Shown piece by piece: positions 5,068 through 11,197 of a DNA stretch of 26,593 bases; position 1 is the stretch's first letter, and the number at the start of each line of letters is the position of its first letter. The notes under the pieces are model-generated. The model searched no databases and had not been told where the DNA came from. It saw nothing but the letters and a program-made list of their open reading frames with translations. Position numbers and translations under genes: made by a program. The stretch spans positions 1-26,593 of IMG/VR virus record IMGVR_UViG_3300042914_001505. The stretch is one strand, 5' to 3'. This DNA is from a virus.

Positions 5068-7389
5068 TCAGCCCTTGACCCGCGCGATGATGTCAGCCGC
5101 GCTGGGCTCGGGCAGGTCCACCAAGCGGCGCGCCTCGGACTTGCTGCCGGTCCAATCAGGCGCGCGAAACACATGCTTCTTCGTCGGGTGCTCAACCGAG
5201 TAAACCCGCCCCATGTCTTCCCATCCGGCCTCACGGAACGCATGCAGCAGGGCAGGGACTACCAGCTTGATATGGGCCGGTGCACGGGCCTGCAAGCCCT
5301 CCAGGAAGCCCTGCCACGGGCCACCGACCACGCCACGGGCGAACAGGCCCACACGGTGCGTCATCTGTTCGACCAGCCACGCCTCGGACCCGCTAAGGCC
5401 CGCCTGCAGCATGATGGCCTTCGCCTCAGTCATGGGCGGCGCGGCGCCAGGCTGGAACGTCGAAACATCCCGCGAGTGAAGCCAGGCCGCCACGCTCGCC
5501 AGGCCACCGCCCGCGTACCAGGCCCACAGGCGCGCCGCAACGTCAGGGGGCATGATCTCGGCCTCGGACCACAGGACGAACCAACGGCGGTCATCTGACG
5601 GCAGACTGATCGCGGCGCGCTCGTTCGAAAACGCCAAGACCAAGAGCCTGTTCGCGGCGTCGTAGGGGTGTAGTCCCTTACGCTGGATCGAGATTAGTTC
5701 AGGCGGCGCGGCAAGCAGGGGCTTGAGTCGGTTCTCCAGCGCGCGGCGGTCGGACGCCTCGGGCTGGCGCAGTTCGTTCAGCACCAGCACCTCGGACTCG
5801 AACGCATAGCCCCACTGCGAGTTAATCTCTTCGTTCCGCACGGTCGCAACATTCGTTTTCCCCTCGCCACCTACCGCCCACAGGAACGGCGCCCAGAGGG
5901 AGTCTTTACCACTGCCAGGCCGGCCGGCGTGCAGCACGCCGTGATTGATCTTGATGCTGGGCTGCTGAACCTTGAACGCCATCACGTTCAGGACATGCTC
6001 ACGCTCTGCCGGATCCGGGATCATCCGCTCGGCGTGCTCAAGCCACTGGCGCACGGCAGCGTCCGATGCCCCGCCAGTAGCCGCCGGGCGCCCGTCGCGC
6101 CACTTGTTGCCGTACACGCCACCGGCCCGGGCCACCAACACGTCATCGCCCGCGCTGTACGCGATACCGTCCAGCACCCGCCCGCCCTTCGTCTGGCGGT
6201 GCTCGTCAAAACAAATCGACGCCTCGATTTTGGGGTTCTTGCCGTGGATGCTGCGGCAGGACACATGGCGGAACAGCGCGTTGAAGTTTGTCCGCGTGAA
6301 CTGGCGCCGCTCGCGCATGTCAAAGTACGCATCATCGGACACAACGTACGCAAACCGGTGCCACCAGTCGGCCTTGTCGGTCCGCGCGGCCTCGGCCCGG
6401 TCCACCTCGGCCATGACCTCGGCCACGGCGCCGGCCAGCTCGGGCGTGGGGGTCAGCCGCCCGATGGTCTGCAGCATCGCCTGCTGCAGCAGTTCGTCCC
6501 GCAGGCCAGGCGTGTGCTTAGGCCCGCCACGCTCGGCCACCCACTCAAGGAACCAAGCGCTGTCAAGGTCAATGCAGTGCGAGTGCAGGCAGCAGAACGC
6601 CCGCCCACTGGGCAGGTAGCGGCCCTCGGGGTTCCCGTCGGTATGCGCCTCGGCGTTGGGGCACACCACGCCCATCCAGCCCTCGGTGTTCGGACGCGAC
6701 AGCACCAAGCCCTGCTCGGACAACCATGTCGCCACGTCATCAGCCCCGTCATCGGACAGGCGCACCGGGCGCGGCCCCAACGACTCCACCACCTCGGGCG
6801 TGACGCCCAGGCCGGCGCAGATCTCGGCCAGCGTGTACTCACGCCCGGGCGTGAACTCCACCAGGCGCGAGGCGAACGCGTCCTTGCCGGGCTTGAAGTT
6901 GACCGAGCCAGGCAGTCGGAAATTTCTGACCGGGTTGCAGGCCCCCGCGTCGGTGTAGCCCGCAGCGGCGATGGCGTTGATGGCGCCAACAAACTCCAGT
7001 TTGGTGGGCTGGTCACTGAAGACGTAGCCCCACTGATAGTTCCCGGCTGACGTCTCCATGATCCACGTCGGAGCCAGCGGGGGCGTCTTGCTCTTGGTGC
7101 CCACGTCGTCCAGCATCATCACCAGCACGTACTCGCAGTTGGCCGCACCGGCTGACGGTTTGCCGTCAATGAATCGGTCGACGATGAACGAGGCGGTGTT
7201 ACCGAACCACGCCTCACCCTGCTTGATCCGCCGTGTGGGCAGGTACGCCGGCCAGCTTGCTTTGATCGCGCCGTTGGCGTGGAACTGCATCTCCCCGTTC
7301 ACCAGGCGCGGCGTCTGCCGCACGATGAGCGCCGTCTCGCCAGCAGGCGCGAGCGCGGACAAGTACTCAATGAATTCTTGTGATGTCAT
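5068..7389 (-). CDS. Primase-helicase: AEP/RepB-type primase fused to SF3 (D5-like) helicase
   Basis: 773 residues. The N-terminal half looks like an archaeo-eukaryotic primase-type domain: an acidic strand MLDDVG at 92-97 and RLPGSVNFKPG at 158-168, the latter typical of phage and plasmid replication primases. A zinc-binding segment follows with CPNAEAH (243-249) and FCCLHSHC (265-272). The C-terminal half is an SF3-type ATPase: Walker A GRPGSGKDS (489-497), Walker B-like VLVLNEL (534-540), sensor strand LLVLAFSNE (582-590) and DDRRWF (599-604). It would prime and unwind DNA at the fork. The start is the ATG at 7389, overlapping the polymerase stop as ATGA; an in-frame start at 7446 lies inside the polymerase gene and is less likely. 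Last gene of the replication operon; no integrase or initiator adjoins it. Confidence 0.87.
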   Translation of the reverse strand: MTSQEFIEYLSALAPAGETALIVRQTPRLVNGEMQFHANGAIKASWPAYLPTRRIKQGEAWFGNTASFIVDRFIDGKPSAGAANCEYVLVMMLDDVGTKSKTPPLAPTWIMETSAGNYQWGYVFSDQPTKLEFVGAINAIAAAGYTDAGACNPVRNFRLPGSVNFKPGKDAFASRLVEFTPGREYTLAEICAGLGVTPEVVESLGPRPVRLSDDGADDVATWLSEQGLVLSRPNTEGWMGVVCPNAEAHTDGNPEGRYLPSGRAFCCLHSHCIDLDSAWFLEWVAERGGPKHTPGLRDELLQQAMLQTIGRLTPTPELAGAVAEVMAEVDRAEAARTDKADWWHRFAYVVSDDAYFDMRERRQFTRTNFNALFRHVSCRSIHGKNPKIEASICFDEHRQTKGGRVLDGIAYSAGDDVLVARAGGVYGNKWRDGRPAATGGASDAAVRQWLEHAERMIPDPAEREHVLNVMAFKVQQPSIKINHGVLHAGRPGSGKDSLWAPFLWAVGGEGKTNVATVRNEEINSQWGYAFESEVLVLNELRQPEASDRRALENRLKPLLAAPPELISIQRKGLHPYDAANRLLVLAFSNERAAISLPSDDRRWFVLWSEAEIMPPDVAARLWAWYAGGGLASVAAWLHSRDVSTFQPGAAPPMTEAKAIMLQAGLSGSEAWLVEQMTHRVGLFARGVVGGPWQGFLEGLQARAPAHIKLVVPALLHAFREAGWEDMGRVYSVEHPTKKHVFRAPDWTGSKSEARRLVDLPEPSAADIIARVKG

Positions 7390-9383
7390 TTGCCGTATCT
7401 CTCCATTGTTTTGATGCCGATGCCCAGCGGCAGACCCGCCGCCCATGCTGGCGGGTTGGTCATCACCCGCTTCATCAGTTCGGTTGTTCGCGCAGGATCG
7501 CTCGTCTCGCAGACAATTTCGTCGTGGACGTGCAGGACCACATCCTCGCCCTCGCGCTCAAGTTCACGCAGCGCATGGCGCAAGATGTCATGCGCCGCGG
7601 CTTGCGTGACGTTCTCGCACGCCAGACCCGGCCACAGGCGCGCGCGAGGCCACTCCTTGGCATCAGCGGCGGGTTTCCATGAGGCTTTGGCGTAGCTGAT
7701 GCCATCCGAGTCGAGTCGCGCGTGGGGGTAGCAGAGTATGCGCCCAGACGGCAGCGCGTACCAGAGATGAGCCCCATCAAACAGGTAGGACACTCGCCCT
7801 GCCGGCACCGCCTGACTCTTGCGCCGCATGGCACCCATGTAGGCCCGCTCAAGATCACTCCAAAACAGCGGCGCCCACGGGTTGGCCTTGCGCCAGGCGC
7901 CCACCATGCGCTTGGCCTCATGCTCTGGCAGGTTCACGCCATACACGCGCCCCATCGCGGCAAACGCGCCCACGCCACCCCCGAACCCGCAGGCGAGTTC
8001 CTGCACCTTGCCGATCTGCCGCTGCCCGGTGGACACAGCGTCCTCGGCCTCGTAGCCGGCCAATATGGCGTCGTATGTGACGCCGAACGTCGCGGCAGCG
8101 TTGACGATATAGGCGTCCAGCCCGCGACGGAACGCCTCCAGCTTGGTGTCCCCCGCAGGCGTTGCGGCCAGCCACGGGTTCACGCGGCCTTCAATGGCCG
8201 ACCAGTCAGCGACGACGAACTGTTTACCCGCTGCCGGGATCAACGCCGGGCGCAGCATCCCCTTTAAGACGTCGGTGACCCGCTTGCCGAACGCAGGAAC
8301 GATCTGATGTCCACGGCACATCGCATGACGGACGGCCTGCGGATCTTTGGCGACTTTGCGGGCGAAATTGTGGACCTGCAGGCCGTAGCTGGACGCCCGG
8401 CCTGTGGCAGCACCGCCAGCGAACACGAACGCGCCACGCACACGGTGATCTTCGACATCCGCAAGGTTGGCCATACGGACGAACTTGGCGACCGATGAGG
8501 CCCAGAGGTCATCTGCGCACTGGATGACGGTCGCCGCGTCAGGGGGTACTTCATCGGGGTTCTCCTCTGCTAGGATCAGCAGCGCGGCACGGACGGTTTT
8601 GTCGATGGACTGCTTTTCTTCTCCGTCTTTGTGGACCGTCATCAAACGGCGCGCCTCGGGGCCGACCCGCCACCACACCCACTCGCGCATCCGGGGCGAG
8701 CGCACCGACGTGATCTCGCCGTCCGTCACCTCGCGCACCTCCTGCTGGATCGCGTCCAGTTCCTCCACAGCGTAGGGCTGCGCGGCCTTGGCCAGGTCTA
8801 CGTCCACCAGCACGCCGCGGTCGTTGATGCGCTCGTTTGCCCAGTAGTCGGACAACTCCTCGGCAGACAGCGGGCGCAGGGCCTTGCTGATGGCCCGCAT
8901 CGCACGGACGTCCTGCGCGCAGTAGTGGACCAGGTCGGCCAGGTCTTGCTCGGTGTGCTTGAACGGCGGGATGCAGCACTTGCGCACCAGCGCAGCGCCC
9001 TTGTGATCCTTGCGCATACTGGCGCCGGCAAACCGCCCCACGTCCTCCAGCGAGCCAGGCGCGCAGTTGGCGCGGGCCTGCGCGGCGGTGCAGACGAACT
9101 GCTCCAGCTTAGGCACGGGCGCGTTGTGGTCTGACCACAGGACATACGTCCAGATCAGCCGCTCAAACGCGGCGTTGTGGGCATAGACGCGCTCACCGGC
9201 CAGCACGGCCTGCCGAACTGATTTTGGAAATTCTTGGCTCGGTTGCCAAATTTGCACCTCATCATCGTCATGCGCATACGCCATGCACAACACTTCTGTG
9301 CTCGCGTCTTGCGCGTAGTTGTAAACGCCCGCGGTCGTGAGGTCGCAGGCGCTGCGGGTTTCGAAGTCGATCCAGATGGGCAT
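7386..9383 (-). CDS. Family A DNA polymerase with 3'-5' exonuclease
   Basis: 665 residues; the phage replicative polymerase. The exonuclease domain begins at once, with DFE (6-8), AHNAAFE (68-74) and YCAQD (154-158). The polymerase domain has motif A DWSAIEGR (393-400), motif B RQIGKVQELACGFGGG (455-470) and motif C HVHDE (618-622). In motif B, counted from the conserved Arg and Lys (455, 459), Leu463 occupies the position of E. coli Phe762 and T7 Tyr526, and Phe467 that of Tyr766. There is no 5' nuclease domain. The start codon ATG (9383-9381) is preceded directly by the T-tract of a terminator hairpin and has no ordinary ribosome site, yet the DFE motif so near the N-terminus argues against a later start. 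Confidence 0.95.
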   Translation of the reverse strand: MPIWIDFETRSACDLTTAGVYNYAQDASTEVLCMAYAHDDDEVQIWQPSQEFPKSVRQAVLAGERVYAHNAAFERLIWTYVLWSDHNAPVPKLEQFVCTAAQARANCAPGSLEDVGRFAGASMRKDHKGAALVRKCCIPPFKHTEQDLADLVHYCAQDVRAMRAISKALRPLSAEELSDYWANERINDRGVLVDVDLAKAAQPYAVEELDAIQQEVREVTDGEITSVRSPRMREWVWWRVGPEARRLMTVHKDGEEKQSIDKTVRAALLILAEENPDEVPPDAATVIQCADDLWASSVAKFVRMANLADVEDHRVRGAFVFAGGAATGRASSYGLQVHNFARKVAKDPQAVRHAMCRGHQIVPAFGKRVTDVLKGMLRPALIPAAGKQFVVADWSAIEGRVNPWLAATPAGDTKLEAFRRGLDAYIVNAAATFGVTYDAILAGYEAEDAVSTGQRQIGKVQELACGFGGGVGAFAAMGRVYGVNLPEHEAKRMVGAWRKANPWAPLFWSDLERAYMGAMRRKSQAVPAGRVSYLFDGAHLWYALPSGRILCYPHARLDSDGISYAKASWKPAADAKEWPRARLWPGLACENVTQAAAHDILRHALRELEREGEDVVLHVHDEIVCETSDPARTTELMKRVMTNPPAWAAGLPLGIGIKTMERYGK

Positions 9384-9410
9384 AAAAAAAGCGGGGCCTC
9401 TCAGCCCCGC
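9384..9410 (-). terminator. Terminator hairpin abutting the polymerase start codon
   Basis: On the minus strand GCGGGGC (9410-9404), loop TGAGAG, GCCCCGC (9397-9391), then seven T (9390-9384) and at once the ATG of the polymerase. It starts 12 bases after the upstream gene's stop. A stem-plus-T-tract of this form is a textbook intrinsic terminator and should separate the two upstream genes from the polymerase and primase, so expression of the latter may depend on read-through. Confidence 0.85.
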
Positions 9411-9422
9411 CCCCTTCTCTGG

Positions 9423-10070
9423 TTAGGCCGCGCGACGACGACGGCCAGGCGCTGCCGGCTCGGCGGCGGGCGCCTCGGCAGGCGTCTTGGCTTCGTCAGC
9501 CGCGCCGTCCATGCCGACCCAGTGCTGCACCTTGAACTCGGGCGTGTAAACGCGCCCGTAGGACTTGTGCTGGTAGTGATCCTTCCCGAGAACGATCACC
9601 GGCACCGGCTTGGTCTGGTCCCTCTCCACCTGAGTGGCGATCTCGACCGCCAGCGTCTGCACTGCGCGCTTGCCGCCGACAGAAGTCACGGTGTACCGCG
9701 CCTCCATGCCGGCGTCTTCGCCGCTGATGCACTTCAGAGAGAACCCGACCTGAGCCTCCCAACCCCGCTTGGCGCCGGGGGGCGCCACGTCGAGTTCGGG
9801 CAGCGGCTGGGTGATGCCGACCATCTTCTCGCCCAGCACCTCACCCTCACCCCAGGCGATGAAGCCGTGGACAAAACTGAAGGGATTGACAGCCCACAGG
9901 GAGCCGTCTTCCACCTCGGTCTGATCCGCGCCGAACACCCAGTGGCCCGTCTTGTCCATCTTCACGATGACGGTGGCAGAGCCCACGTCAGGTGCGATGG
10001 CGCGAAGGGCCGTGGAGAGGGAAGAAACTGCCGGCAGGCCGGCTTGAGAGAACGCAACGATATTGGACAC
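9423..10070 (-). CDS. Unassigned replication-module protein, possible ssDNA-binding protein
   Basis: 215 residues from a GTG start (10070) with AAAGG seven bases upstream. No motif that I can name. The protein looks like a beta-rich globular domain (about residues 30-185; segments SATVIVKMD, EARYTVTSVGG, VQTLAVEIATQ, PVPVIVLGKD) followed by an Ala/Pro-rich tail ending in GRRRRAA. In comparable phage modules the gene between the DUF2800-type nuclease and the family A polymerase encodes a ssDNA-binding (DUF2815-type) protein, so this role is plausible by position. The basic tail is unlike the acidic tail of bacterial SSB. A terminator lies just downstream, which suggests that it and the nuclease are made in larger amounts than the polymerase. 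Confidence 0.6.
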   Translation of the reverse strand: MSNIVAFSQAGLPAVSSLSTALRAIAPDVGSATVIVKMDKTGHWVFGADQTEVEDGSLWAVNPFSFVHGFIAWGEGEVLGEKMVGITQPLPELDVAPPGAKRGWEAQVGFSLKCISGEDAGMEARYTVTSVGGKRAVQTLAVEIATQVERDQTKPVPVIVLGKDHYQHKSYGRVYTPEFKVQHWVGMDGAADEAKTPAEAPAAEPAAPGRRRRAA

Positions 10071-10081
10071 GATTGAACCTT

Positions 10082-11197
10082 TTACTTCAGTTTATGAAGG
10101 GCCGCAACGAGTTGCTGCCCGATGAGCACCGCCGCGGGCCGGGGATCGCTCTCCGGTGCGAGGGTGTTGCCAGACGAGACGCTCACGACCTGATTGGCCG
10201 GGAACTCCACGCCGTGCTCCTTGCAGACCTTCTCCATTTGAGAAGGACTGCGCAATTTGGTCTCTTGGTACTTGGTAGGGCAGATGCCGGCGTTCAGCCA
10301 CAGGACGTGCATCCAATTCTCATCCGCCCACTGACGGGTCGCCCGCTTGGGCACCAGTTTATAACCCGGCACGGGCATGCCCTTCTCCAGCCGCGCCTGC
10401 GCCAGCTTGCGGGCGTCAGCGATGAAGTCCTCCAGCCGCTCGGCCAGCGCCAGCGCCTGGCCCAGCGCCTCGGGGTCCACCGTGGCCAGCGCCGTGTGCG
10501 TGACGCGATCAACCGCGCCACTGACTTGCGGGCAGATCGGCTTGGCGGTACACCATCGGCAGTGGTCACCGATGACGACGGGCGCGTCGGGTCGCTTGGC
10601 GGCTTGCACGGCCACGACCAGTTCGCGTTCGAACTCATGCACGCGCTTGAACGTCGTCACCCAGCGGCGCACATGGGGCGGCTGGACGATCACGATCTCA
10701 ACCTCGGTCGCACCGTCAAAGGCCCACTGCACCTTGCTGGTCTTGAGCGCCGCCGCGGCGTAGAACAGCCCCTGCTCGGACTCCTCGGCCTCGACCATCA
10801 CCCCGTCGCCGAACTTCCAGTCAAGGATGATCGCGCGGTCGCCGATACGGCCCACTAAATCGGCGTTGCCGAAAACGCCTTCCAGCGCCTTGACGCCTTC
10901 AAACTCCACCTCGACCTCTTGAACGAACTGCATCTTTTGATCGGGGTCGATCTGGTCGAGCGCGTCAATGCAGAACTGCAGCTTCTCGGCCTGCTCGGGC
11001 GACAGGTTGTGCTTAGCGATCACGTCGCCCATCTCGCCATCGGCCAGCAGGTCTTCCATGCAGCCGTGCAGGAGCGTGCCCTCCTCGGCGTACTTGGACG
11101 ATGCCTGCGGCGGCATCTTGGCAACGAGCGCCACACTGCCAGGGCAGTTGATGACGCGCTTGGCGGAGGAGCCGCCGACTACTTTACTGTGCTGCAT
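10082..11197 (-). CDS. DUF2800-type Cas4/RecB-like nuclease
   Basis: 371 residues. The pattern is that of PD-(D/E)XK exonucleases with an iron-sulphur cluster: an N-terminal Cys in NCPGS (C18), GTLLHG with His44, Asp113 in GNADLVG, the catalytic ILDWK (D126, K128), and three further Cys in HCRWCTAKPIC (213, 216, 222) which with C18 make the four cluster ligands. Such proteins in phages process DNA ends for recombination or replication. GGAG stands five bases before the ATG. First gene of the leftward replication operon, divergent from the VRR-NUC gene; ends 11 bases before the next start. Confidence 0.88.
   Translation of the reverse strand: MQHSKVVGGSSAKRVINCPGSVALVAKMPPQASSKYAEEGTLLHGCMEDLLADGEMGDVIAKHNLSPEQAEKLQFCIDALDQIDPDQKMQFVQEVEVEFEGVKALEGVFGNADLVGRIGDRAIILDWKFGDGVMVEAEESEQGLFYAAAALKTSKVQWAFDGATEVEIVIVQPPHVRRWVTTFKRVHEFERELVVAVQAAKRPDAPVVIGDHCRWCTAKPICPQVSGAVDRVTHTALATVDPEALGQALALAERLEDFIADARKLAQARLEKGMPVPGYKLVPKRATRQWADENWMHVLWLNAGICPTKYQETKLRSPSQMEKVCKEHGVEFPANQVVSVSSGNTLAPESDPRPAAVLIGQQLVAALHKLK

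Follow-up and report, generated by a model that had tools for sequence, protein, structure and literature searches.

Genes and features at the junction

The window, that is, the whole stretch of viral DNA analysed here (26,593 nucleotides), carries a run of replication genes on its minus strand, in which the DNA polymerase gene follows a gene for an ssDNA-binding-protein-like product (ssb-like) after an intergenic gap of 39 nt (Table 1). The ssb-like product had no Pfam match; it matched PHROG 9528, "nucleotidyltransferase" (E 4e-15), and the top PDB matches of its AlphaFold model were mostly SSBs, but weak ones (best E 0.058). The name given to this gene is thus tentative. The nearest complete relative is a P22-like podovirus (57.8% polymerase identity) whose annotation lists no RNA polymerase, so that the host RNA polymerase probably reads the operon.

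Table 1. Genes and sequence elements at and around the ssb-like/polymerase junction.
Feature	Position	Strand	Basis or remark
DUF2800/PD-(D/E)XK exonuclease-like gene, first in replication run	10082..11197	minus	Pfam PF10926, E 1.6e-51
ssDNA-binding-protein-like gene, OB-fold suspected; hairpin after its stop	9423..10070	minus	AlphaFold pLDDT 78
ssb-like stop TAA	9425-9423	minus	read from sequence
CCAGAG	between ssb-like stop TAA and AAGGGG	minus	read from sequence
AAGGGG, proposed Shine-Dalgarno (SD), 5' side of hairpin	9416-9411	minus	relatives with SD-like sequence at same place
Hairpin GCGGGGC-TGAGAG-GCCCCGC	9391..9410	minus	-16.5 kcal/mol
5' arm GCGGGGC	9410-9404	minus	read from sequence
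Loop TGAGAG	9403-9398	minus	read from sequence
3' arm GCCCCGC	9397-9391	minus	read from sequence
Seven T, terminator-like tract, also 7-nt spacer from folded hairpin to ATG	9384..9390	minus	
DNA polymerase ATG	9383-9381	minus	read from sequence
Family A DNA polymerase	7386..9383	minus	Pfam PF00476, E 1.9e-10; PHROG 17, E 2e-94
Primase/DUF5906 (VapE-like) ORF	5068..7446	minus	domain search

Residues 4-9 of the polymerase, WIDFET, were read as the DxE exonuclease motif. Because this motif begins at residue 4 and the relatives start at the same place, the polymerase ATG is the true start, and a start farther downstream, which an earlier note on this DNA had named as an outcome that would count against its proposal, is ruled out. 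An upstream extension was also rejected, as no ATG, GTG, or TTG lies in frame back to the ssb-like stop. The same holds for a leaderless start, since the 3' end of the ssb-like gene has no promoter-like site and the only nearby consensus match lies inside the polymerase gene. The primase probably starts at the ATG at 7389-7387 and not at 7446, given an ATGA overlap with the polymerase stop and the SD GGAGAG. Elsewhere in the window, most genes carry an ordinary SD at a distance of 5-10 nt from the start codon.

The minus strand reads, in gapless order, TAA, CCAGAGAAGGGG, the 7-bp GC hairpin, TTTTTTT, and the polymerase ATG. The coordinates that the earlier note had given for the hairpin, AAGGGG, T-tract, and ATG all hold, as does its statement that the ATG lacks an ordinary ribosome site, the T-tract ahead of it containing no SD. 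AAGGGG, with an anti-SD duplex of -6.7 kcal/mol, lies 27 nt from the AUG in linear RNA and 7 nt in folded RNA. The element is unique in the window in a strict Watson-Crick scan and had 0 matches in 40 dinucleotide shuffles; a hairpin of equal stability arose in 3 of 500 shuffles of the 39-nt gap. Matches to the Rfam families Sphinx_1 and flpD were sub-threshold and were taken as chance, none reaching the gathering score, and no gathering-level Rfam match was found in 17 relatives.

The anatomy is that of a terminator, with seven GC pairs, a 6-nt loop, and seven T immediately after the stem (at least 5 pairs and a loop of 3-8 nt being the limits used). A consensus terminator scanner did not list the element, apparently because G-U pairing lets GGGGAA join the T-tract, so that the stem swallows the tail. 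AAGGGG is indeed paired with the T-tract in the predicted fold, GGGG being ~1% and AA ~35% unpaired. Opening this extension costs ~6 kcal/mol, near the anti-SD return, and the polymerase site may therefore be weak. This predicted pairing is the main weakness of the ribosome-binding role discussed below; it may weaken the polymerase start, or may even be the purpose of the T-tract.

Conservation of the hairpin in related loci

Searches with the polymerase and the ssb-like protein gave 162 loci; the sequences are environmental contigs. Close relatives (polymerase identity at least 93%) have the same layout with unrelated yet complementary stems. The stems observed at this place include GCGGGGC/GCCCCGC (in the window), GATGGCCC/GGGCCATC, CGGGGGC/GCCCCCG, and GCCGGGGTC/GGCCCCGGC. 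Two leaders of the close relatives read GATGGCCC-TTCG-GGGCCATC-TTTTTT-ATG and CGGGGGC-TACG-GCCCCCG-TTCTTTTTT-ATG. Since such different stems occupy one position, the structure and not the sequence is conserved. The comparison for paired changes that the earlier note had proposed thus came out in its favor, with unrelated complementary stems and an SD-like sequence at the position of AAGGGG. The pairing of the arms, full by construction in natural leaders and 55% when arms were swapped, is descriptive only, and it is the gap shuffles that test stability. The loops among relatives are UUCG, UACG, UCCG, GAAA, or GCAA, and most close relatives have a T-tract of T5-T7. Stem and flank vary freely among the relatives, so that no conserved alternative pairing was noticed of the kind that a regulated attenuator (by leader peptide, riboswitch, or protein) might use.

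The hairpin remains behind the ssb-like gene when another gene follows (L004, L016, L019, L026, L031, L033, L042, and L054), and the genes that replace the polymerase there, such as a methyltransferase or a PAPS reductase, have their ATG 5-9 nt after the hairpin. Judged by these arrangements, the hairpin is part of the upstream gene's 3' end and would serve whichever gene comes next. Neither this link to the upstream gene nor the ability of AAGGGG to pair with the T-tract was part of the earlier note.

Distant relatives are more varied: some have an ATGA overlap of the two genes without a hairpin (L115, L134), others a hairpin plus an SD of their own (L048, L066, L135), and in L043 and L095 the hairpin runs into GGAAAGGAG. 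The earlier note had held relatives with a normal ribosome site in place of the hairpin to be evidence against its proposal. Some relatives do combine an ATGA overlap with the absence of a hairpin, or a hairpin with a normal SD, but the 5' SD is then gone too.

In another set (L047, L121, L124, L129), the SD GGAAAGGAG shares bases with the outer stem CTTTC/GGAAAG; here the hairpin would hide the SD and not bridge to it.

Location of the Shine-Dalgarno sequence

A clear SD lies immediately 5' of the hairpin in 16 of the 27 ssb-linked leaders in which the hairpin abuts the start. The strongest is AGGAGG in L056 and L063, the former reading AGGAGGGA-hairpin-TTTTTTATCAG-ATG, while GAAGGA precedes the hairpin in L037, L038, and L042 (in L037, GAAGGAC-hairpin-TTTCACC-ATG), all three without a T-tract; L010, L012, and L017 have weak SDs (-3 to -4). 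Within the ssb set alone, abutting and distant starts did not differ significantly (16/27 versus 3/10, p = 0.15). When the 37 ssb-linked hairpin leaders were split by the presence of an SD between hairpin and start, a split chosen after inspection of the table, a 5' SD was found in 19 of the 28 leaders without such a downstream SD and in none of the nine with one (p = 4e-4).

The comparison was also made over 3.2 Mb of loci (ORFs of at least 80 aa), a set which includes the ssb family itself. A 5' SD precedes 16 of 43 hairpins located 3-11 nt before an ATG, as against 5 of 111 whose start is at least 14 nt away (p = 9e-7), and 12% of hairpins with no following start.

Occurrence of the layout at unrelated phage genes

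The IMG/VR scans used a UUCG hairpin pattern, and their counts are lower bounds. Among the matches listed, AGGA followed by a hairpin and by an ATG 5-11 nt after it opens an ORF of at least 60 aa in 53 of 69 deduplicated cases, compared with 9 of 36 for the control pattern with ATGA in place of AGGA (p = 7e-7). With the hairpin excised, the SD-ATG spacing is 5-11 nt with a mode of 8, a range restricted to some degree by the scan pattern itself; ordinary AGGA-ATG sites in the same contigs have a mode of 7-9. The two half-spacers do not add up to a fixed total, their sum being no narrower than in permuted pairs, and only the agreement of the mean with ordinary spacing is used here. When no ATG was imposed, the next starts in viral contigs formed two clusters among the matches listed, one at 5-11 nt and one at 16-22 nt, the examples of the second mostly having their own SD. 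In cellular genomes, only 6 of the 88 next starts listed fell at 4-11 nt.

A tail-protein family (PHROG 394; L730-L776), gathered by protein search alone, has the SD-hairpin-ATG order without a T-tract in every one of its 23 distinct leaders (identity at least 71%). The hairpins are of the UUCG type, and a few of the leaders carry a weak SD. The covariation score of the stem, formally computed for this family only, was 0.234, a value reached by 0 of 500 shuffles and due mainly to the two outer pairs. In L777, a relative of the tail protein at 36% identity, the hairpin is absent and an ordinary SD is present.

In the cultured Alcaligenes phage Piluca (L782), a terminator-like hairpin ends a few nt before the tail gene ATG; it has no 5' SD, and the annotated ribosome site (276-279 of the locus) lies in its 3' arm.

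Termination and other explanations

Partial termination or attenuation at the stem and T7 is plausible from the sequence. It is nevertheless unlikely, in our view, that the element acts solely as an intrinsic terminator or attenuator for the ssb operon, with no role in initiation, the polymerase being made from read-through mRNA by reinitiation of ribosomes that end the ssb-like gene 39 nt upstream. The stem with T7 is a textbook terminator, and runs of at least 4 T follow the stem in 14 of the 27 abutting family leaders. Furthermore, relatives in which the two genes overlap as ATGA need neither a hairpin nor an SD, which shows that coupling can suffice and suggests that reinitiation from the ssb-like gene could also serve the polymerase here. 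However, the frequencies given above for abutting hairpins, distant hairpins, and hairpins without a following start indicate that a 5' SD is no general trait of terminators. In addition, L037, L038, L042, and L051 keep the hairpin layout without a T-tract, as does the tail-protein family, so that termination is not the common denominator.

A hairpin that goes with the ssb-like 3' end and not with the polymerase would also agree with a role in shielding the ssb mRNA from 3' exonucleases, or in its processing, the nearness to the ATG then being due to genome compactness. We regard this as improbable, because compactness predicts neither a 5' SD that folding places at the right distance nor the either-or pattern of SD position. 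The proposal of the earlier note that GAGAGG (9402-9397, in the loop and 3' arm, 13 nt from the ATG) acts as the SD once the hairpin opens has an anti-SD energy of -5.8 kcal/mol within the last 22 nt in its favor, but is rejected, as the motif is not conserved and the UUCG, UACG, UCCG, or GAAA loops of close relatives contain no SD.

Proposed function and comparison with known systems

We consider the element to be, with fair probability, a split ribosome-binding site with the terminator-like hairpin at its core. Comparative data back the SD-hairpin-ATG order, the conservation of structure, the spacing, and the use with unrelated downstream genes, and they lend good support to structure-assisted initiation of the kind known from T4 genes 25 and 38. 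Of the readings in the earlier note, the one in which the folded hairpin brings AAGGGG to the ATG is thus supported by the relatives and by many unrelated phage genes.

On leaving the ssb-like gene, RNA polymerase would at once meet the hairpin, and the T-tract may end some transcripts. As the stem starts just 12 nt past the ssb-like stop, a ribosome close behind should often block termination. In the read-through mRNA, the hairpin would refold and take 20 nt out of the distance between AAGGGG and AUG, and the seven U left as ordinary SD spacing would allow a 30S subunit to start the DNA polymerase. This order of ribosome-dependent read-through, refolding, and initiation is likely, each functional step being one that we infer. 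We also hold it possible, while leaning somewhat against it, that the element is a portable junction with two functions on the ssb-like 3' end, which terminates unless a ribosome trails RNA polymerase through the ssb-like gene, and whose same fold, in read-through RNA, is the ribosome-binding site of the next gene.

To our knowledge, structure-assisted starts were previously known from two T4 genes only, and a search of open-licence papers found none on a wider SD-hairpin-ATG class. As summarized in a review (PMC3014915), hairpin folding cuts the SD-AUG distance from 22 to 5 nt in T4 gene 38 and from 27 to 11 nt in T4 gene 25 (Nivinskas 1999; Malys and Nivinskas 2009). Similarly, the hairpin here lies between SD and AUG, and its folding would shorten the spacing from 27 to 7 nt; like the gene 25 site described in that review, which occurs only within one group of related phages, it occupies an intercistronic junction. 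In contrast to the T4 sites, there is a T-tract after the stem, the element is tied to the 3' end of the gene before it, the downstream genes vary, and related layouts with UUCG, UACG, or GAAA hairpins occur at many unrelated environmental phage genes. Function was proven for the T4 genes according to the same review, whereas here we infer it.

In a study of the lambda terminator tR2, the ribosome repressed a terminator close behind a stop codon, almost fully at short distance, and termination recovered by ~30 nt, the values between these distances depending on sequence (PMC4824070). The GC stem, short loop, and T-tract located 12 nt past the stop resemble such a terminator within the range of repression (PMC4824070). 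Unlike in an intrinsic terminator, the T-tract runs into a start codon, an SD lies at the 5' base of the stem, and some relatives have no T-tract.

The operator of T4 gene 43 is likewise a hairpin ahead of the start of a phage DNA polymerase, but it lies ~40 nt upstream and binds the polymerase (PMC3014915), whereas the stem sequence here varies and the polymerase gene can give way to other genes. A polymerase-binding operator is unlikely for these same reasons.

If the portable-junction reading is true, split sites would be a common and unrecognised class of start sites in environmental phages. Should the layout be in use as widely as the sequences suggest, many phage genes may be misjudged by gene finders and RBS calculators that look for an SD at 5-10 nt, and a good many supposed terminator hairpins may be parts of start sites. 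The use of one hairpin to end transcripts and to start translation would be a compact means to hold the polymerase below the ssb-like protein.

Other leader structures

A candidate for an unreported structured RNA was observed directly after the ssb-like stop in L059, L061, L067-L069, L071, L072, L074, L076-L082, L149, L150, and L154, with the form GGGG-GAAAGCGGAU..variable stem..GCAGCGAGUA-CCCC-ACCU(U/A). Its outer stem covaries (GGGG/CCCC, GGGCC/GGCCC, GGGGU/ACCCC), and GAA/AGUA resembles a loop-E motif; L067, L076, L079, and L149 had no Rfam match at gathering level. Between this candidate RNA and the polymerase gene, L059, L064, L067, L068, L076, and L077 have a conserved five-codon ORF, M(A/T)(P/L)V(I/T)-stop.

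Further classes of long ssb-pol leaders are found in L032, L050, L130, and L132 and in L099, L104, and L106. L032 shares only the 5' part of its class, and the others may have a closing stem whose end lies just ahead of the polymerase ATG (AUAGGGGCGG...CGCCCCGCCUUUC and CAGGUGGUUCGG...CCACCACCUUUUU).
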